DNA of 20,324 bases, taken from positions 1 to 20,324 of the IMG/VR virus record IMGVR_UViG_3300007516_000200; one strand, written 5' to 3'. The notes under the pieces are model-generated. The model was not told where the DNA came from and made no database searches. It was given only the letters and a program-made list of their open reading frames with translations. A program made the position numbers and the translations under genes. How positions within the stretch are numbered: the stretch's first letter is position 1; the number at the start of each line of letters is the position of its first letter. Below are positions 5,822 to 15,715 of this stretch, piece by piece. This DNA is from a virus.

Positions 5822-6142
5822 TTAAACGGTAAATGATTCCCCACACCCACATCTTGCTGATTCATTTGGGTTGATGAACTCAAATCCTTGGTTTAATCCC
5901 TTTTTCTGATAATCTAGTTGTAAACCATCTAGATAGGTTAAATCTTTTTTATCTATTATTAGAGTAACACCCTTGTCAGTGTAAGTATTGTCTTCTGGTA
6001 ATATATTGTCAACAAACTCTAATACATATGCCATACCTGAGCACCCAGTAGTTTTTACACCAATACGGAGTCCTACAGTATTTTCTCTACCTGTAATTGC
6101 ATTGCTAGCTTTCTCTGCCGCTATATCAGTTAAAGATATCAT
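5822..6142 (-). CDS. iscA: IscA, A-type Fe-S cluster carrier
   Basis: IscA-family proteins accept Fe-S clusters or iron from a scaffold such as IscU and deliver them to apoproteins in the cytosol. The 106-residue product matches the usual length and has all three ligand cysteines at C34, C98 and C100 (TGCSGMAYVLEFVD and RCGCGESF), almost the same positions as in E. coli IscA. The conserved LDGLQLDY and GLNQGFEFINPN blocks favour IscA over ErpA. The ATG follows the stop of the formate dehydrogenase gene directly (TAAATG), so the two are translated together. No cysteine desulfurase is encoded nearby, so sulfur must come from the host. Confidence 0.93.
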   Translation of the reverse strand: MISLTDIAAEKASNAITGRENTVGLRIGVKTTGCSGMAYVLEFVDNILPEDNTYTDKGVTLIIDKKDLTYLDGLQLDYQKKGLNQGFEFINPNESARCGCGESFTV

Positions 6143-7339
6143 TTACTTTTTGAACTCTGCCGCTTCTTCTGAGCCGCCTGTTGAAGTTCCTTTAGTGTAA
6201 GAGTGAGCACCAACACCAGCTAATTCTCCGTTCTGAACGATTAGATATTCATCTCTGATATCAACCTCATTGAATACACACTCTAATATCTCTCTAACTC
6301 CGTCTGCATATCGAGTCTGAGCAGATAGAGATGTTCCAGATGTATGAGGAGTCATTGCATGATTTGGCATTGTCCTCCAAACATGGTCATTAGGTGCAGG
6401 TTGTGGGAACCATACATCACCAGCATAACCACTTAGATGTCCTGATTCTAGACCTCTAGCAATTGCATCTTTATCACAAATCTTTCCTCTTGCAGTATTA
6501 ATTATATAAGCACCTTTTTTACATTTAGCAATCATCTCATCATCAAACAGATGTTCAGTTTCAGGATGTAAAGGACAACTAATGTTAATCACATCACAAA
6601 CTGCAACCATTGATTCGACTGAATCGTGATATGTAAGATTTAACTTTTGTTCTTGTTCTATACTTAATCTATGTTTATCAAAGTAATGGAGATGTACATC
6701 AAATGCCTCCATCTTTCTTAATACATCTAGACCAATACGACCAGCCGCAATTGTACCAACATTCATACCCTCTACATCATAAGACCTAGAAACAGCATCA
6801 GCAATATGCCAACCGCCATCATTAACAATCTTATGTTGAGTAGTAAAATCTCTTACTAAAACTAGAATCTGCATAATGATATGTTCAGCAACAGACCTTG
6901 AGTTACAATAAGTTACTTCAACAACATCAATGTTATGGTCCATGGCGGCTTGTAAGTCAACATGGTCTGAACCAATGCCGGCAGTAATCGCCATCTTTAA
7001 ATTCGGGGCAGTTTCCATCAATTCTCTTGTTACATAATATGGCCAAAATGGTTGAGATATAACAATATCTGCATCAACTAATTCTTTATCTGCCGTACAT
7101 CCTTTGCCATCTTTGTCAGACGTAACGACTAATGTATGACCAGCATCTTCTAAAAACTTTCTAAGACCTAACTCACCAGATACACAACCTAATAATTCAC
7201 CAGGTTTAAAATCTCGTCCTTGAGGATTTGGCAATGTCATGCCATCAGGATATTTGTCTATTTTAGGTAAATTGCTTAATGGATAACTCTCAGGCATTCC
7301 GCCTTTAGGGTCATCATATAATATACATAACACTTTCAT
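6143..7339 (-). CDS. fdh: NAD-dependent formate dehydrogenase
   Basis: The enzyme oxidises formate to CO2 and reduces NAD+ to NADH, without metal or Fe-S cofactors; it belongs to the D-2-hydroxyacid dehydrogenase superfamily. The 398-residue product is collinear with the 400-residue Pseudomonas sp. 101 enzyme as I remember it. PFWP 97-100, I122, N146, R284, D308, Q313, H332 and S334 (substrate and catalytic site) are all present at identical numbers, as are the AAGRIG nucleotide loop at 198-203 and D221, which selects NAD over NADP. The C-terminal GGSEEAAEFKK is also kept. It starts behind GGAG, lies between iscU and iscA and is coupled to iscA. Nothing suggests decay. NADH made from host C1 metabolism could feed respiration or reductive synthesis during infection. 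Confidence 0.95.
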   Translation of the reverse strand: MKVLCILYDDPKGGMPESYPLSNLPKIDKYPDGMTLPNPQGRDFKPGELLGCVSGELGLRKFLEDAGHTLVVTSDKDGKGCTADKELVDADIVISQPFWPYYVTRELMETAPNLKMAITAGIGSDHVDLQAAMDHNIDVVEVTYCNSRSVAEHIIMQILVLVRDFTTQHKIVNDGGWHIADAVSRSYDVEGMNVGTIAAGRIGLDVLRKMEAFDVHLHYFDKHRLSIEQEQKLNLTYHDSVESMVAVCDVINISCPLHPETEHLFDDEMIAKCKKGAYIINTARGKICDKDAIARGLESGHLSGYAGDVWFPQPAPNDHVWRTMPNHAMTPHTSGTSLSAQTRYADGVREILECVFNEVDIRDEYLIVQNGELAGVGAHSYTKGTSTGGSEEAAEFKK

Positions 7340-7362
7340 TTTATTTCTCCATTTTCGTCAAT

Positions 7363-7761
7363 TCAAATTTTTATGCGGTTTTTTTGTTTACTCTTATAAT
7401 CAGCTAATGCACTTTTAATAGCATCTTCAGCTAAAACTGAACAATGTATTTTTACTGGAGGTAAAGCTAATTCTTCTACTATATCCATATTTTTAATTTC
7501 TTGTGCTTGCTCGACTGACTTACCTTTGAGCCAAGTTGTAACAAGACTACTTGAAGCTATAGCTGAACCACATCCATAAGTTTTGAACTTAGCATCTTCA
7601 ATAATTCCAGTTTCTTCATTAATTTTAATTTGTAACTTCATTACATCTCCGCAAGCGGGGGCTCCAACCATACCAGTTCCTACTGTCGGGTCATTTTTAT
7701 CAAATGAGCCTACGTTTCTAGGATTCTCATAATGGTCTAATACGGCTGCTGAATAAGCCAT
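7363..7761 (-). CDS. iscU: IscU Fe-S cluster scaffold
   Basis: IscU is the cytosolic scaffold on which a cysteine desulfurase (IscS) builds [2Fe-2S] clusters, which HscA/HscB then help release. The 132-residue protein keeps every key residue: C37 and D39 (PACGD), C64 (YGCGSA), H106 and C107 (KIHCSVLAEDA), and the LPPVK HscA-recognition motif at 100-104. D39 is the residue that lets clusters be transferred. The start has AAGGAG six bases upstream. It lies between the ErpA-like gene and the formate dehydrogenase gene. Because LPPVK is kept, the protein probably works with host chaperones of the Isc type; if the host only has a Suf system, the partner is unclear. Confidence 0.95.
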   Translation of the reverse strand: MAYSAAVLDHYENPRNVGSFDKNDPTVGTGMVGAPACGDVMKLQIKINEETGIIEDAKFKTYGCGSAIASSSLVTTWLKGKSVEQAQEIKNMDIVEELALPPVKIHCSVLAEDAIKSALADYKSKQKNRIKI

Positions 7762-7772
7762 GGCATTCTCCT

Positions 7773-8105
7773 TTATACTGCAAAACTACTTCCGCATCCA
7801 CAGGACGATGAAGTAGATGGATTTGATATTTGAAATTGTTCTGCCGTTAGAGTTTTATTGTAAGCAACAGTTGAACCTTCTAGATATTGGTTAGAGTGTG
7901 CATCGACAATAACTTTTAGTTCCGTGCCTTCTAGGTCTAATGCAAAATCACTATCAGATATGGTATTTTCCCATGTAAATCCATATTTAAACCCTGAGCA
8001 TCCGCCACCTTCTACATACATTCTGAGACCTTTTATTTCGGAATCTGATTCTTCCGCATATAGGTCTACAATCTTGTCAATAGCGGACTGTTCAATGGTT
8101 ATCAT
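7773..8105 (-). CDS. erpA: ErpA-like A-type Fe-S carrier
   Basis: This second A-type carrier of 110 residues has cysteines C36, C102 and C104 (GGGCSGFKYGFTW and SCGCGSSFAV). The GGGCSGFxYGF block and the S-CGCGSSF end are typical of ErpA, whereas the carrier at 5822-6142 has the IscA version. ErpA delivers clusters to final targets, including respiratory and isoprenoid enzymes. The ATG at 8105 is the right start, since the longer upstream reading of this frame only gives a Cys/Ser-rich sequence antisense in character that overlaps the upstream gene. It starts two bases after the stop of that membrane-protein gene, so it is coupled, with only a weak ribosome-binding site of its own. Confidence 0.92.
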   Translation of the reverse strand: MITIEQSAIDKIVDLYAEESDSEIKGLRMYVEGGGCSGFKYGFTWENTISDSDFALDLEGTELKVIVDAHSNQYLEGSTVAYNKTLTAEQFQISNPSTSSSCGCGSSFAV

Positions 8106-8107
8106 TT

Positions 8108-8299
8108 TTATTTCTTTGCTTGTTCTTTTGTATATAATGTCCAAGCACCATATACAATAGCACCAACTGCTGCTACTGATACTAATGCATGTGACATTAG
8201 AGCAAGAGTGCCAAGTACAATCAAAGCAATTCCGTCCCATGAAGTTCTTTCAGCCCAGCGAGCAAGAAGCCACGCCTTTATAACATTTAAATCTAACAT
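8108..8299 (-). CDS. Small two-helix membrane protein
   Basis: The 63-residue protein starts at the ATG at 8299, which has AAGGAA nine bases upstream; longer readings overlap the nrdB end and lack a start signal. A WLLARWAERTSWDG head is followed by two hydrophobic helices (about 21-35 and 38-56) and a YTKEQAKK tail. Small proteins with the 'ERTSWDGxxLI-LG ... YGAWTLW' pattern are common in marine T4-like phages, but no function is known to me. It links nrdB to the Fe-S genes and is coupled to the ErpA-like gene. Confidence 0.75.
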   Translation of the reverse strand: MLDLNVIKAWLLARWAERTSWDGIALIVLGTLALMSHALVSVAAVGAIVYGAWTLYTKEQAKK

Positions 8300-9824: not shown

Positions 9825-11621
9825 CTATTCGCAGGCGATACAAATGCCATCGTCTTCTGCCATTTTTGTTAAGTCTAACTCTTGAATTACCTGTCTTTCA
9901 ATTTTCTTTGCGACCTTATCAGCCTTACCAATTTTCTCTGAACGACAATAGTACATCGTTTTAAGTCCACCTTTCCATGCCATATAATGTATTGCGTGTA
10001 CATATTTAATGTTAGCATCTGGTCTGAAAAATACATTTAATGATTGTGCTTGGTCAATCCATTCTTGTCTATCTACTGCATGTTGAATCAACCATCGTTG
10101 GTCAATTTCCATTGATGTTTTAAATATATCTCTTTCCCAATCTGATAACTTATCCAAATGTTGTACACTGCCGTCATTAGCAATGATTGATGACCAAATC
10201 TCATCATAGTCCATTTTACTATCTAATTTACATTTATCTTTTATTATTTTATCTAAAAATTTATTCTTATGTAAATGTGAACCAGACAATGTATCTTGTC
10301 TATAAGCATTAGCACGATATGGTTCTATACTTGGAGAAGTATTACCCATGATAATAGATGATGAGGCATTTGGAGCCACAGCCATAAGATGTGAGAATCT
10401 TTGACCTGAACCTTCTGCATCTGGAGCTTCACCTCTCGCTTCGCCAAGCTCTTGATTAGCTACATCTAAAGAAGTTCTTATGTGTTTAAATATTTGTTTG
10501 TTCTTACTAACAGCTAATGCTGATTCCCATGGAATATTCTTCTTTTGAAGATGAGCATGCCAACCTAATGCACCAACACCAATACTTCTCTCACGTGAGG
10601 CTGAGTAAGATGCTCTTGCAACAGATTCTGGTGCATTTTCAATAAAATATTGTAATACATTATCTAACATCTCAGCAATATCTTTTAAGAATAAATCATT
10701 CTTTTTCCATGCATCATAATATTCTAAATTTACAGAAGACAAACAACACACAGCTGTTCGATTTTCATCTGTTGGTAGAATAATCTCTGAACATAGATTC
10801 GATTGTTTAATAGATAAACCTAAATCTTTTTGAAACTGTGGCATCTTATCATTAGAAATGTCAATGAAATGTAAATATGGTTCACCTGTTTGCATACGAA
10901 TTTCTAAAATTCTTTGCCATAAGTCTTTAGCTGAAACCACTTCTTTAATCAGACCACTGTTTGGGTCTTTTAATTGCCATGAATCGTCTGCATCGCCTTC
11001 AATCATACTTCTTTCAATAATCTGCATGAAGTCATTTGTGATATTGATGCCATGATGTAGATTCAGACATCTCATGTTCTGGTCACCAGTAGGTCTTCGC
11101 ATTTCTAGAAACATCATGATATCAGGATGAGATATATCTAGGTACGCTGCATAGGAACCTCTCCTTGTTCGTCCTTGACGGTATGCCAATGAGGATGCAT
11201 CATATGTTCGTAAGTGAGGCATTACACCAACAGACTTATCATCTGATGAACGAATACCAACACCAATGCCGACACCTCCACCTAACATAGACAAGGAGTT
11301 TACTTCTGAGAGTGTTGAGATTAAACCTTCTGATGAATCATCTAGATACGGTAGAAAACATGATATCGGTAAGCCACGCTTAGACCGACCATATGATAGG
11401 ATAGGAGTTGAATATGATAACCAATGTTGACTTGCATAATCATACAATCTTTGTGCATGTTCTTTATTCGAACCAAATACACTCGATACATATGCGAATC
11501 GTTCTTGAGGACTATCTTCATCCTCTTTCATATAACTTTCTTTTAATCTCTTGAGACCTAATTGGTCAAATAGGGAATCTTTTGTAAAATCAACTTTAAT
11601 ACCATGAACAATGTTGTCCAT
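9825..11621 (-). CDS. nrdA: Ribonucleotide reductase class Ia, alpha subunit, no ATP cone
   Basis: NrdA reduces ribonucleoside diphosphates to deoxy forms. The 598-residue protein contains the redox cysteine in GLPISCFL (C88), the catalytic N275-x-C277-x-E279, the second redox cysteine in VCCLSS (C292/C293), the radical-transfer tyrosines in MYYCR (Y557/Y558) and a C-terminal CIACE pair that passes electrons from thioredoxin. C88 corresponds to E. coli C225, so about 137 N-terminal residues are missing relative to E. coli, including the region of the ATP cone that senses dATP. The enzyme may thus escape dATP feedback. The start has GGAG at good spacing and follows a structured 141-base leader. 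Thioredoxin and nrdB follow. Confidence 0.97.
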   Translation of the reverse strand: MDNIVHGIKVDFTKDSLFDQLGLKRLKESYMKEDEDSPQERFAYVSSVFGSNKEHAQRLYDYASQHWLSYSTPILSYGRSKRGLPISCFLPYLDDSSEGLISTLSEVNSLSMLGGGVGIGVGIRSSDDKSVGVMPHLRTYDASSLAYRQGRTRRGSYAAYLDISHPDIMMFLEMRRPTGDQNMRCLNLHHGINITNDFMQIIERSMIEGDADDSWQLKDPNSGLIKEVVSAKDLWQRILEIRMQTGEPYLHFIDISNDKMPQFQKDLGLSIKQSNLCSEIILPTDENRTAVCCLSSVNLEYYDAWKKNDLFLKDIAEMLDNVLQYFIENAPESVARASYSASRERSIGVGALGWHAHLQKKNIPWESALAVSKNKQIFKHIRTSLDVANQELGEARGEAPDAEGSGQRFSHLMAVAPNASSSIIMGNTSPSIEPYRANAYRQDTLSGSHLHKNKFLDKIIKDKCKLDSKMDYDEIWSSIIANDGSVQHLDKLSDWERDIFKTSMEIDQRWLIQHAVDRQEWIDQAQSLNVFFRPDANIKYVHAIHYMAWKGGLKTMYYCRSEKIGKADKVAKKIERQVIQELDLTKMAEDDGICIACE

Positions 11622-11642
11622 TCATATACTCCAAATAAAATC

Positions 11643-11728
11643 TAAAAATAAAAAACACTGGGGAATAACTTTACAAACATGAGCCTTTTTGGTGTTAGCA
11701 TGATAATGGCGACTAGCCAATCAGTGTT
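11643..11728 (-). terminator. Structured nrdA leader with alternative hairpins
   Basis: On the minus strand AACACTG (11728-11722) can pair perfectly with CAGTGTT (11660-11654), which runs straight into TTTTTTATTTTT. A second AACAC (11696-11692) competes for the same GTGTT, and a small TGGC-TAGTC-GCCA hairpin lies in the long loop. This looks like a terminator or attenuator between the primase gene and nrdA. The outer pair gives a tRNA-like size of about 75 bases, but no anticodon or T-arm could be built, so a tRNA is rejected. Confidence 0.4.
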
Positions 11729-11762
11729 AGATTACAACACACAATTTATTATTAACTTGATA

Positions 11763-12797
11763 CTAGACTTTCTTCCAGTATACTAAATTTGTTTCTGCTT
11801 CCAAACCTGAAAAGGTATTAGTACTTATAATATTTTCTATCTCACTTATGGTCAAACCAGACACAATCATGTCATTAATATCTTTCTTGCCGTGAAGCGT
11901 TTTGGGCCATATTACGACATTCTGTTGCGAACTTACTGCAACTTTCATCATCTTCACTATTTCTTTGTTTCTCGGTTCATTATCAAAAATGAGCACCTTA
12001 CTAGCACATTCGACACTTTTAGATGTTAAATATAAATTAGCATCGCCAGATGCCAAACAATTGTCTAAGAATAGACTATCTAGTGGTCCTTCTACAATCT
12101 TTACTGTTTTTGATAAATCAATTCTATCTAAACCAAAAGCTAACTTCTTATCACTCTCCACTACTCTCATTGTAACGTAACGAATGAGTTTGTCATTGGA
12201 TTCTAATGCACGACCCGACACAGCAATCAAATTATTATACTCATCATAGAAAGGAATTACCAATCTAGCATCATCAACTAATAGTTTGTCGTGATTAGGT
12301 ATAAGGACATCAATAAACTGTTTATACTTTGGTGCAAATAGTAATTGAGACCAAAACTTTTCTGGAATCTTTCTACCTTTTAAATACTTAACACACCAAT
12401 GTTCTGCGGATAGTTGGTTACACCATTCCGCATTGTCAAATGATTTTTGTTTTTGAATCTTATCAAATCTAGGTGGGGGTATCTCAAATTCAGGCTTCTT
12501 ATAATTTGAATTGCCAATTTCACCAGCTTTATATCTCTCTAGTATATATTCTTTGTGTAGGGTTTCGTCAATAGACTTAATAAGATTACCGACAGTTGTG
12601 CCTGAACCACAATTATGACACCTATAAAACAAGTTATTTGCTTTTTGGTATACATAACCTCGAGCTTTAGATTTATTCTTTTGTGAATCGCCACAGAAAG
12701 GGCAAGAAAAATTAAAGAGATAGTTGTTCTTCTGTTTGAAGTTTCTCAAACGATAAGAGACCATCTTGGTATATTTAGAATCGATTACTAATGACAT
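11763..12797 (-). CDS. T4 gp61-like DNA primase
   Basis: The enzyme makes RNA primers for lagging-strand synthesis with the replicative helicase. The 344-residue protein has a CHC2-like zinc finger (C32, C35 and C60, C63: CPFCGDS and CHNCGSG), then a TOPRIM catalytic domain with the EGPLDSLF motif, the LIFDNEPRN motif and KDINDM near the C-terminus, in the order of T4 gp61. The N-terminal part before the first cysteine is of similar length to that of gp61, which supports the first ATG. That ATG has no ribosome-binding site: it is the sixth to seventh base after a sigma70 -10 box, so the message should begin at or next to it. Confidence 0.92.
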   Translation of the reverse strand: MSLVIDSKYTKMVSYRLRNFKQKNNYLFNFSCPFCGDSQKNKSKARGYVYQKANNLFYRCHNCGSGTTVGNLIKSIDETLHKEYILERYKAGEIGNSNYKKPEFEIPPPRFDKIQKQKSFDNAEWCNQLSAEHWCVKYLKGRKIPEKFWSQLLFAPKYKQFIDVLIPNHDKLLVDDARLVIPFYDEYNNLIAVSGRALESNDKLIRYVTMRVVESDKKLAFGLDRIDLSKTVKIVEGPLDSLFLDNCLASGDANLYLTSKSVECASKVLIFDNEPRNKEIVKMMKVAVSSQQNVVIWPKTLHGKKDINDMIVSGLTISEIENIISTNTFSGLEAETNLVYWKKV

Positions 12798-12803
12798 AGT
12801 GTA

Positions 12804-12832
12804 ATTATAACAGGTGCCGCTATAATAGTCAA
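12804..12832 (-). promoter_or_regulatory. Sigma70 promoter for a leaderless primase mRNA
   Basis: TTGACT (12832-12827) and TATAAT (12809-12804) are separated by 17 bases on the minus strand. The base seven positions downstream of the -10 box is the A of the primase ATG at 12797. The promoter fills the 36-base gap between the coiled-coil protein gene and the primase gene and separates the late-type lysis genes from the replication and nucleotide genes. Confidence 0.88.
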
Positions 12833-12833
12833 G

Positions 12834-13283
12834 TTAAAACAGGTCAAATATTCCAAGTTCGCCTAAAAGGAAACCAAGCGCTAAGAAGAAACCAATAAGA
12901 AAGTATTTAGCTTTATCGATATCCGCCCACTTTACAAATGGATTTCTATCATCTTTCTTATGTTTAATTAAATCATTTCTTATTTCGTCTAACTTATCTG
13001 TAATGCGACCTTCTATCTGGTCTATCTTATTATAAATCTCTTTGGTAGTGGTGCTAACTCTTGAATGAATATCTCTAATATCGTCATGTAATCCATCTGA
13101 TATTTTTTCTTGTTGGTCATGTCTTTGCTCATGCAAAGAAATCATTTTAACGATATTCTGGTTAGTCTCTTGTATCTTATCTAGAGTTAATGTGGTTCTA
13201 TCGAATAATGATTCACACTGCTCAGCATCCTTCTTCAATAGTTCGGTAGCTATCTTTAATTCGTTGATATCTTTATCTGACAT
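12834..13283 (-). CDS. Coiled-coil protein with C-terminal membrane anchor
   Basis: The 149-residue protein is a long helix with heptad pattern (about 1-115) followed by one transmembrane segment (about 127-147, KYFLIGFFLALGFLLGE). The FDRTTLTLDKIQETNQNI and LHEQRHDQQE segments are the type found in a widespread phage family placed near lysis genes; an XhlA- or holin-associated role is plausible but not shown. It starts at a TAATG overlap with the EF-hand membrane-protein gene, so the two are expressed as a pair. Its stop abuts the -35 box of the primase promoter. Confidence 0.75.
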   Translation of the reverse strand: MSDKDINELKIATELLKKDAEQCESLFDRTTLTLDKIQETNQNIVKMISLHEQRHDQQEKISDGLHDDIRDIHSRVSTTTKEIYNKIDQIEGRITDKLDEIRNDLIKHKKDDRNPFVKWADIDKAKYFLIGFFLALGFLLGELGIFDLF

Positions 13284-13624
13284 TACGAATCTATATTCTT
13301 AGTTTTTTTGGAATATGCTTGTGTTCCGTAAAATGCCGCTACAATAGCTGCAACTGATACAAAATATGTGGCTGCCATATCTCCTAATATCTTAGCAGCT
13401 CCATCTAGACCGAGTGCTACTGCTAGAACAACTGCAAATGGATATAATAACATACCTCCAAGAGCAAACCACGCCATGTTCCTTTGAGCGTCTTCTCTCT
13501 TGTCTTCGTTTTCTAATCGTATTTGTCTTTCTTCCAATTTAAATTCCTCATCACTAACTATGCCGTCATTATTGGCATCATACTTTGCATACTTAGATGT
13601 TGATTCGAGTTTCTTTGCTACCAT
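13283..13624 (-). CDS. EF-hand two-helix membrane protein, holin candidate
   Basis: The 113-residue protein carries one complete EF-hand loop (D16, N18, D20, I22, S24, E27: DANNDGIVSDEE) in its cytosolic or periplasmic head, a charged helix, and two membrane helices (about 49-71 and 83-101). This combination occurs in many marine T4-like and vibriophages near the lysis genes and is a holin candidate; Ca2+ binding is predicted from the canonical loop. AGGAGAAACC precedes the ATG. It is coupled to the coiled-coil anchor gene. Confidence 0.8.
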   Translation of the reverse strand: MVAKKLESTSKYAKYDANNDGIVSDEEFKLEERQIRLENEDKREDAQRNMAWFALGGMLLYPFAVVLAVALGLDGAAKILGDMAATYFVSVAAIVAAFYGTQAYSKKTKNIDS

Positions 13625-13637
13625 GGTTTCTCCTAAA

Positions 13638-13919
13638 TTAAACTACTAGAGACCCAACAGATATTAATGTAGATATTAGTCCATTTAATTTAGTTCTTAC
13701 CTCAAGTTCACCGGCTGCTGCTTCTACTACTTTTGTGTTTTCCAAATCAATTAGAAATTCTTTATATTCATCAAAAGATATTTCTTTTGCTTCAAAGAGT
13801 TCTTTAAAGTTTTGGGTTTCTACTACTAAATCTACAACAGATTCGTTGTCTGACTTAAGCAATTCTTCTAACTGTTCTTCTAGACTTTGAAGTCCTTCTG
13901 TTATTTTATCAAGACTCAT
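13638..13919 (-). CDS. Acidic helical protein, unknown
   Basis: A 93-residue acidic protein with heptad-like helices (LQSLEEQLEELLK and NFKELFEAKEISFDEYKEFL) and a more hydrophobic C-terminal segment (LNGLISTLISVGSLVV) that might touch the membrane. The 'ELFxAKxISxDEYKEFL' segment is common in small phage proteins that precede membrane helices. It overlaps the lipoprotein gene upstream by four bases (ATGA). A role in the lysis or envelope module is suggested only by position. Confidence 0.65.
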   Translation of the reverse strand: MSLDKITEGLQSLEEQLEELLKSDNESVVDLVVETQNFKELFEAKEISFDEYKEFLIDLENTKVVEAAAGELEVRTKLNGLISTLISVGSLVV

Positions 13920-14317
13920 CGTGGTTTTCCTCCAACTACATTCTGAATTGTTATTGCATTTTTATTCAGTAAATTAAATTTAATAGTACAATAGGTTTTA
14001 CTTACGTTTGGGTCAACTTCATACTTAACATGTAGACCTTTTGTAATCTCTAGTAATGCACCAGACATTTTTATTGTCTGTTCATTGTGTGGAATTGAAG
14101 TAGAGTAATTATTAAACTCATTCACTTTAATCCAAAGGGTGTCAACTAATGGTTTTGCATACTTAGTGCCACAATGTTTTTCGCCTAAAGCCGAAGATGT
14201 TCTAATTTGATTTATTATGTAATATTCATTATTGTCAAATTTTGCCATATTGTAACTATCTAAGATAGCACACCCAGGTAATACAAACAGTGCCAATACT
14301 ATAATTAATTTTTTCAT
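13916..14317 (-). CDS. Phage lipoprotein
   Basis: The 133-residue protein begins with a basic end, a hydrophobic stretch and the lipobox LPGC (C16), so it should be processed by signal peptidase II and anchored in a membrane facing the periplasm. The mature part (about 117 residues) holds cysteines near 49 and 110 that could form a disulfide. No family recognised. Its neighbours are an exported nuclease upstream and the helical and EF-hand genes downstream, both joined by ATGA or short gaps, which places it in an envelope-acting operon. Superinfection exclusion or lysis accessory are possibilities, without direct evidence. Confidence 0.75.
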   Translation of the reverse strand: MKKLIIVLALFVLPGCAILDSYNMAKFDNNEYYIINQIRTSSALGEKHCGTKYAKPLVDTLWIKVNEFNNYSTSIPHNEQTIKMSGALLEITKGLHVKYEVDPNVSKTYCTIKFNLLNKNAITIQNVVGGKPR

Positions 14318-14769
14318 TTACACCAACTCTCCTTTTTTTTACCATAATATTCTCTTGCGTAACCGTGTTCTAGTAATTGTTTTGTTAAACTCTCACCATC
14401 TAGTATAATATCACCGATAACTCGGCCTCCATACTTATCCCACTTCATTATAACTACTTTAGTGGTTGTTGCGTTATTAACTAGAGCCTTTGTGAAATCA
14501 GAAGCTTCTTGCCCCTTCTTGGCCTCTGATGGACATTCTGCACGATGTCCTTTTTCTGGAGTATCCACACCATAAACACGAAGACTTAATTCTGGTTGTA
14601 ATGGGGCAGGTAGAAAGTTAGCTTGAAATGCAACAGTATCGCCATCAATAACTCTTGTTATTTTGTAGTCATATTCAACGCCTTTCAACTCTTTAGAAAA
14701 AACTGATATAGAGGTGAGGCATATCAGTATAATAACAATTGAAATAAAGTAAAATGTTAATCTATTCAT
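14314..14769 (-). CDS. Exported staphylococcal-type nuclease
   Basis: SNase-family enzymes cut DNA and RNA in a Ca2+-dependent way. The 151-residue protein has a signal anchor (residues 5-24), then an OB-fold nuclease domain with VIDGDTV (D42, D44), LRVYGVDTPE (R64, D69, E72) and KYGGRV (R116), the counterparts of D19, D21, R35, D40, E43 and R87. A CESW-like C-terminal cysteine (C150) and C79 may form a disulfide. Export suggests it works in the periplasm, for example on host or competing DNA. The ATG follows the stop of the Lys-rich micro-gene with no gap and the stop overlaps the lipoprotein gene. Confidence 0.9.
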   Translation of the reverse strand: MNRLTFYFISIVIILICLTSISVFSKELKGVEYDYKITRVIDGDTVAFQANFLPAPLQPELSLRVYGVDTPEKGHRAECPSEAKKGQEASDFTKALVNNATTTKVVIMKWDKYGGRVIGDIILDGESLTKQLLEHGYAREYYGKKKESWCK

Positions 14770-14862
14770 TTATTTTTTCTTTTTCTTTTCTACTATTTTT
14801 AATTTTGGAGCTTTCTTTACTTCTTTTACTTCTAATGTTGGTTTCGGTCTTAAAATTCTCAT
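14770..14862 (-). CDS. 30-residue Lys-rich micro-protein
   Basis: A strong AGGAGAAG ribosome-binding site seven bases from the ATG leads to a 30-residue frame that ends directly before the nuclease ATG (TAAATG). Over a third of the residues are Lys, with a MRILRPKPTLEV start and a KKKKK end. Similar tiny basic proteins occur in T4-like phages; it could bind nucleic acid or only serve to couple translation. The signal and abutting junction are the support, since length alone would not be. Confidence 0.55.
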   Translation of the reverse strand: MRILRPKPTLEVKEVKKAPKLKIVEKKKKK

Positions 14863-14883
14863 GTACTTCTCCTATGTGAATAT

Positions 14884-15282
14884 CTATTTATCTTGCTTAG
14901 GTTCGTAATATTCTTTATATTTAATAATAATTGTTTTTTGTGACTTTATATAATTTCTTATTTCAGCCATCGTTATAGACAACTCTTCATATCCATCATC
15001 AGTCAATGCAAATAATACTAAATCAATATTCTTATCTTTTAGTTTTGCAAAAACCTCTTCTGCATTATCTGGAGTAACAACATACCATTTAGGTGTTCTT
15101 GGATTTAATTGAGGAGGGTTGGGTAGATTGAGAGGATTTCTGTCTACAGCTACAGATTTAATTTCAATTGGTTTAACATCAGTATCACCAAATAAACTAA
15201 ATGATGCACACCCCTGTAAACTAAGGAGTAGTAGGGATAAAATTAGGATTTGCAATTGCTGGACATTCACGGTTAGTCTCAC
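14884..15282 (-). CDS. o-spanin-type lipoprotein, overlapping the i-spanin gene
   Basis: The frame encodes up to 132 residues with a hydrophobic leader and an LQGC lipobox (C25), then a Pro-rich linker (NPLNLPNPPQLNPRTPKW) and a compact domain with DLVLFALTDDGYEELS and an IKSQKTIIIKYKEYYE helix. This is the layout of outer-membrane spanin partners in marine T4-like phages and vibriophages. The first 62 bases lie in another frame inside the i-spanin gene, as in Rz/Rz1. The start is GTG at 15282 or, with a better GTGAG signal, GTG at 15270. Together with the i-spanin it would fuse the membranes at the end of lysis. Confidence 0.75.
   Translation of the reverse strand: MRLTVNVQQLQILILSLLLLSLQGCASFSLFGDTDVKPIEIKSVAVDRNPLNLPNPPQLNPRTPKWYVVTPDNAEEVFAKLKDKNIDLVLFALTDDGYEELSITMAEIRNYIKSQKTIIIKYKEYYEPKQDK
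14885..14892 (-). promoter_or_regulatory. Possible late promoter (GATAAATA) at gene end
   Basis: GATAAATA covers the last codons of the o-spanin gene and stands 22 bases before the micro-gene at 14862. Late promoters of marine T4-like phages follow the pattern NATAAATA, but here the match is partly made of the codons GAT AAA TAG, so it could be chance. Confidence 0.25.
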
Positions 15283-15715
15283 TTGTTAATTTAGCGTTAA
15301 GTTCTTTTTCAGTATGTGGAGCACCAGTTAATAACTCTAAACATCTAACTGTATTTTTTGTTCCACGGTTAACCAATCTTTCTATTACTTTTGGTTTGAC
15401 AGCTGCAAGTGTACCAAAATCTCTTTTGTCCCCATTAGCTTTGACATTAAATTTATCTGTCAGTTTTCTAATCTCTTTTTGGTTCTCTACATTAAGGTCT
15501 TGTAGTGATTGGTTGATTGTTTGAATTGCTACAACATCTTCTTGCATTTTATCAACCAAATATTGTTGTTCTTTAATGCCTTCTTCTAACTTGGCACTAT
15601 TAGCTTCACTGATTGCAAGGTTAGCTTTTAAATTTGAGACATGCCAGAGGCCGCCTGCAAGTATTAATACTATAATCAAAATAGCAATCATCTTTATTGC
15701 TGAAGTAATACCCAT
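15221..15715 (-). CDS. i-spanin (Rz-like) membrane protein
   Basis: The 164-residue protein has an N-terminal signal anchor (about 6-26), a long coiled-coil (27-90), a DFGTLAAVKPKVIERLVNR segment, two cysteines (about 124 and 150) and a conserved NRECPAIANPNFIP end. The 'RDLGDLAxxKPKxxExxIN ... RCxE ... NxECPxxANPN' pattern is that of inner-membrane spanins of vibriophages and marine T4-like phages. Such a protein links with an outer-membrane lipoprotein, here the overlapping o-spanin. It starts at a TAATG overlap with the upstream virion-type gene. Confidence 0.8.
   Translation of the reverse strand: MGITSAIKMIAILIIVLILAGGLWHVSNLKANLAISEANSAKLEEGIKEQQYLVDKMQEDVVAIQTINQSLQDLNVENQKEIRKLTDKFNVKANGDKRDFGTLAAVKPKVIERLVNRGTKNTVRCLELLTGAPHTEKELNAKLTSETNRECPAIANPNFIPTTP

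Follow-up and report, generated by a model that had tools for sequence, protein, structure and literature searches.

A sigma70 promoter abutting the primase ATG of a T4-like phage points to a leaderless or near-leaderless primase mRNA and to a wider class of such genes

The gene for a gp61-type DNA primase in an environmental T4-like phage is preceded, within the 36-nt gap that separates it from the upstream gene, by a near-perfect promoter of the host sigma70 type, which would probably give an early primase mRNA that is leaderless or nearly so (leader of 0-3 nt). The stretch of DNA analysed here, referred to as the window, comprises the 20,324 bases of an IMG/VR virus record. On its minus strand the order toward the primase is TAA-AC-TTGACT-N17-TATAAT-TACACT-ATG, and the features are as follows.

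12834-13283, minus strand: upstream gene, encoding a coiled-coil protein (DUF7201) with a C-terminal membrane helix, from annotation searches
12827-12832, minus strand: -35 element TTGACT, from the sequence, its TTG being invariant in 26 aligned promoter-bearing relatives
12810-12826, minus strand: 17-nt spacer with the extended -10 TG (12812-12811) at its 3' end, from the sequence
12804-12809, minus strand: -10 element TATAAT, from the sequence and the relatives
12798-12803, minus strand: 6-nt discriminator TACACT, from the sequence
12797-12795, minus strand: ATG start codon of the primase, from the sequence
11763-12797, minus strand: gp61-type DNA primase of 344 aa, with an ATG lacking a Shine-Dalgarno site, from phrog_47 and the T4 gp61 alignment
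9825-11621, minus strand: nrdA, the next gene downstream, which in contrast to the primase has its own GGAG Shine-Dalgarno site

The first-pass annotation had placed a near-perfect sigma70 promoter, TTGACT-17-TATAAT, at 12795-12832, and its coordinates were right, with all elements on the minus strand. The hexamers agree with the consensus at 11 of 12 positions, the 17-nt spacing lies within the 16-18 nt of near-consensus promoters, and the extended -10 TG is present; this was the top promoter match between 11000 and 15000 and the sole TG-bearing one there. A single copy of the TTGAC-N18-TATAAT core was counted in the window where chance predicts 0.08, and 8 of 100 shuffles contained it. As the stop codon of the upstream gene ends only 36 nt 5' of the primase ATG, the intergenic gap holds little more than the promoter. 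The TATAAT ends 6 nt 5' of the ATG, and sigma70 transcription begins about 7 nt past the -10 element, at a purine. From the promoter spacing, its conservation in relatives and the pyrimidine before the A, we infer that transcription begins on the A of the primase ATG (12797) or at most about 3 nt from it, which supports the earlier placing of +1 at this codon. Since a strong promoter directly abuts the ATG, the mRNA is predicted to start at, or a few bases from, the start codon, without a ribosome-binding site. The absence of such a site, also claimed earlier, was borne out: no Shine-Dalgarno match was found 5' of the primase ATG, and the anti-Shine-Dalgarno duplex energy was +1.5 kcal/mol, one of the weakest values in a survey of 42 ORFs in which GGAG or AGGAG is common. 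The predicted structure of the first 100 nt of the primase message was ordinary (z -0.85), with the first 30 nt unpaired.

We examined whether the ATG at 12797 was the true start. The primase ORF matched phrog_47 (DNA primase) at 6.6e-63, and had no in-frame ATG, GTG or TTG 5' of 12797. Its residue 1 paired with residue 1 of T4 gp61 (33% identity), and homology extended over the full length, from the zinc-binding N-terminus through the catalytic core; the CPxCGDS and CHNC cysteines and the EGPxDSLF and DNEPR motifs line up with those of T4 gp61. Met12 is not conserved in the alignment and Met1 corresponds to Met1 of T4 gp61, which ruled out translation from Met12 and agreed with the earlier choice of this ATG over a later codon. 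In two cyanophages, P-RSM4 (L085) and Syn33 (L086), gp61 is annotated from a downstream start which drops part of the zinc-binding N-terminus; the conserved N-terminus begins 165-246 nt upstream, at GTG/TTG-type starts, and those starts are leadered.

Conservation of the promoter spacing and of the ATG had been proposed as a check, and both were retained. We examined the upstream regions of 80 relative loci together with those of the cultured phages Melnitz and Mosig, and reduced them at 90% nucleotide identity (ungapped, so that a few near-duplicates may persist) to 49 non-redundant relatives; promoters were called where they passed a shuffle control at the 1% level. The -10 element ends 6-10 nt 5' of the primase ATG in 32 of the 49, and all 32 have a spacer of exactly 17 nt and an ATG start codon. 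In 26 of these, aligned by hand, mean pairwise identity was 0.81 for the -35 element and 0.80 for the -10 element as against 0.37 for the spacer; since these rows had been picked for promoter presence, the shuffle and decoy controls are the fair tests. Comparison of the window with its 95% relatives revealed many differences in the spacer and a single one in the hexamers, at the sixth base of the -35 element. In L020 and L021, whose proteins begin one codon later, the spacing between the promoter and the new ATG is the usual one. No Shine-Dalgarno site was seen in the upstream sequences printed for promoter-abutting relatives. The gap before the primase in promoter-bearing relatives is mostly 36-40 nt, barely exceeding the promoter, and the upstream coiled-coil/membrane protein is alike in many of them. 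On these comparisons the promoter arrangement at the primase is not a product of chance.

The exact spacing varies. Many relatives have 8 nt between the -10 element and the primase ATG, not 6, which could yield a leader of 1-2 nt, and in Mosig the distance is 10 nt. In the closest relatives (L001-L006) an A, not a pyrimidine, precedes the ATG. The close promoter is missing in 17 of the 49 non-redundant relatives. An ATG-abutting promoter is absent from L034-L036, L046, L047 and L058-L066, and in the cyanophages S-8S29, P-RSM4 and Syn33 and the cyanophage-like L075-L080 the promoter stands about 20 nt or more from the start. A sigma70 promoter just 5' of gp61 is thus widespread, and the leaderless spacing is therefore one of its states, with repeated gains, repeated losses or both. 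In L023 and L046 the upstream gene and promoter are swapped for a common, hairpin-like sequence, GCGACC-ACACCTATTTAT; no tRNA was found 5' of the primase in these two loci.

The distance of the promoter from the ATG was further checked by four pattern scans of IMG/VR, each a sample, with the same promoter placed 3, 6, 8 or 14 nt from an ATG. Among the matches listed, the ATG opened an ORF of at least 60 aa in 99 of 154 cases at 6 nt (64%), 43 of 114 at 8 nt, 38 of 121 at 14 nt (31%) and 28 of 108 at 3 nt (26%), against a baseline of 18% for all ATGs in the 6-nt loci. Again among the matches listed, the excess at 6 nt over 14 nt was strong (p ~7e-8) and that at 8 nt alone was not significant (p 0.34). 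Bacterial RNA polymerase prefers a pyrimidine at -1 and a purine at +1. A pyrimidine preceded the ATG, among the matches listed, in 81 of 99 cases at 6 nt and 35 of 43 at 8 nt, as against 13 of 38 at 14 nt and 11 of 28 at 3 nt; this known initiator context supports a transcription start at the A of the ATG, with the caution that promoter-less primase relatives also often have T before the ATG.

The primase had been regarded as unusual among T4-like genes, and this part did not hold: the primase belongs to a second class of promoter-abutting starts that has 20 non-primase genes as well. We scanned about 1.1 Mb, made up of the contigs of 11 relatives, the Melnitz genome, the window and the first 50 kb of Mosig, and measured how far the -10 element of each strong promoter lies from the ATG that opens the longest ORF (minimum 60 aa). 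The distances were bimodal, with 32 cases at 5-9 nt (12 primases and 20 others), 7 at 10-19 nt and 53 at 20-34 nt; the last class mostly carries Shine-Dalgarno-like sites, and there was no excess between the two classes. For control we used 14 decoy motifs of the same composition, of which 8 of 705 sites fell at 5-9 nt, so that about 3 non-primase cases were expected where 20 of 261 were observed (p ~8e-7). Of the 32 close starts 3 have a Shine-Dalgarno-like tetramer, and of the 85 leadered starts 55 do, the close class having a much shorter stretch to hold one. According to reviews, leaderless initiation favours AUG as the start codon and a 5' end near that codon (PMC9031893). Genome-wide, the ATG, GTG and TTG counts showed no clear difference between the 5-9 nt and 20-35 nt classes, and the AUG-only rule was dropped as genome-wide support because these counts fail to part the classes clearly. 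Promoter-abutting genes in the contigs of relatives included the following.

G008: gp47/SbcD-like nuclease
G001: phrog_459 peptidase
G004: IrrE-like metallopeptidase
G011: pyrimidine-dimer glycosylase-like protein
G005 and G008: SWIM-type proteins
G004: a protein similar to the SWIM-type ones, without a database match

In Mosig, a cultured Pelagibacter phage with host HTCC1062, a -10 element stands 6-9 nt ahead of the annotated start codons of gp55, of a DUF4338 protein and of a peptidase, and Melnitz, also cultured, with host Methylophilales H5P1, has promoter-abutting annotated starts as well. In the Syn33 segment most distances were 20-35 nt, and no close case turned up in the T4 segment that was scanned. 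Promoter-abutting genes form a wider class in these phages, apparently one not described so far.

Three other explanations of the arrangement at the primase were weighed. The promoter may be real, while most primase is made from longer read-through transcripts, by Shine-Dalgarno-less internal initiation or by termination-reinitiation after the upstream gene, with the close promoter mainly boosting nrdA. The upstream genes are on the same strand across a gap of 36 nt in which no terminator was seen, and therefore read-through would also give a leadered mRNA without a Shine-Dalgarno site; moreover, the promoter-less L034-L036, L047 and L058-L066 retain the primase with T-rich upstream sequence free of such a site. 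Against this, the distance from promoter to ATG is kept, and the genome-wide enrichment lies at 5-9 nt and not at 10-19 nt; a promoter serving only the downstream genes would have no need to abut the ATG. We consider read-through as the main source of primase to be unlikely.

Reading of the -10 region by gp55 as a T4-type late promoter (TATAAATA) instead of by host sigma70 is very improbable, even though TATAATTA in the window differs from that motif by one mismatch. T4-type late promoters need no -35 element, whereas all 32 promoter-bearing relatives keep a -35 of TTGA, TTGC or TTGT with the 17-nt spacer, and their variants TATGGTTT, TATAGTAT, TACAATAT and TATGATTA break the late motif at its diagnostic positions; this candidate was rejected. 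Weak promoter-like sites are plentiful in AT-rich DNA, and the 4 kb scanned (11000-15000) held 21 where 18.7 were expected, which is what might be said for a promoter-like sequence arising by chance, with translation from a later codon such as Met12. The conservation refuted this reading, the decoy tests and the T4 gp61 alignment from residue 1 told against it along with the unconserved Met12, and it retains hardly any likelihood.

The preferred and probable explanation is that the gap separating the primase from its upstream neighbour is filled by an early, host sigma70-dependent promoter, at the point where the primase/nrdAB block follows spanin-type and other genes. RNA polymerase would start at the A of the primase ATG or at most about 3 nt away, and a start there would make the early primase mRNA leaderless. 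Leaderless initiation proceeds with 70S ribosomes, or with 30S subunits together with fMet-tRNA and IF2, and is known to withstand kasugamycin. Ribosomes would accordingly initiate on the 5'-terminal AUG of the primase message without Shine-Dalgarno pairing; the primase yield would probably be modest, and nrdA would be translated through its own Shine-Dalgarno site. The plain reason for such an arrangement may be genome compaction, the promoter being fitted into the smallest possible gap. It is also conceivable, and in our view decidedly doubtful, that leader length acts as a regulatory switch, with conditions that restrict canonical initiation, such as host shut-off or altered initiation factors, giving a translational advantage to a separate leaderless set of early genes in environmental T4-like phages (primase, gp47, gp55, peptidase and others). 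The earlier suggestion that the arrangement could permit translation by ribosomes in an altered state is speculative. A phage bS21 gene, as a possible ribosome modifier, was found in none of the 13 environmental records searched. It is present in Melnitz and Mosig only, which argues against a general link, and bS21 was set aside as the linked modifier.

The surroundings of the primase gave several further observations. The upstream protein (12834-13283, minus strand) matches residues 14-89 of phrog_451 and the primase residues 132-461 of the same family, as if some phages carry, or have annotated, a fusion of the two. Beyond it, a gene at 13283-13624 (minus strand) encodes a small protein that contains an EF-hand-like calcium loop (DANNDGIVSDEEF) and matches a holin family weakly, below the cutoff, near two Rz-like spanin genes (14884-15715). 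Iron-sulphur assembly genes at 5822-8240 (minus strand), NifU/IscU-like (7363-7761) and IscA/ErpA-like (5822-6142 and the C-terminal part of 7773-8240), adjoin nrdA/nrdB and a thioredoxin-like gene. Among them, at 6143-7339 (minus strand), lies a 398-aa protein of the D-isomer-specific 2-hydroxyacid dehydrogenase family, likely an NAD-dependent formate dehydrogenase, with 83-85% identity to SAR86 and Thioglobus copies and about 76-81% to those of Pelagibacteraceae. The gene resembles an auxiliary metabolic gene, and its matches hint that the host may be a marine gammaproteobacterium.

The most familiar leaderless mRNAs are those of a handful of phage repressors and of certain bacteria and archaea. 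If the present reading is true, a sizeable set of early genes in abundant marine and freshwater T4-like phages uses a different route of translation start, and a conserved leaderless class would cover replication genes; gene finders favouring Shine-Dalgarno sites would misplace such starts. In the open literature we found no description of leaderless mRNAs in T4-like phages, cyanophages or pelagiphages; as many papers fall outside that scope, this silence is weak evidence of novelty. Sigma70-type early promoters and no middle promoters are reported for Melnitz (PMC9004378). The same paper tallies promoters, and the word 'leaderless' occurs in it only in the title of a cited gene finder (PMC9004378).

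In Melnitz, Mosig and the cyanophages looked at, a promoter precedes gp61 as in the window; the cyanophage promoters (Syn33, S-8S29, P-RSM4) differ from that of the window in standing about 20 nt or more from the start codon. T4 gp61 is orthologous to the window primase and has the same N-terminus, but T4 gene 61 begins 2 nt after gene 61.1, a gap too small for such a promoter, as compared to 36 nt here. Two leader classes have a precedent in Lactococcus cremoris, where leaders were bimodal by experiment, one group lying below 5 nt and the other near 40 nt, and leaders of 4-14 nt were absent (PMC10986495), which resembles the distance gap in the phage contigs. L. cremoris is a bacterium with mapped 5' ends, and the second class is shorter in the phages, at 20-34 nt from -10 to ATG. 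The classical leaderless phage mRNAs are those of lambda cI, transcribed from PRM, and of phage P2 gene C. Lambda cI is also named as leaderless in a review (PMC9031893). The window primase resembles both in being a phage gene with an mRNA predicted to start at AUG from a sigma70 promoter without a Shine-Dalgarno site. Those two encode repressors of temperate phages, whereas the window primase serves lytic replication in a T4-like phage, belongs to a larger set of genes arranged in this way, and is known from sequence alone.
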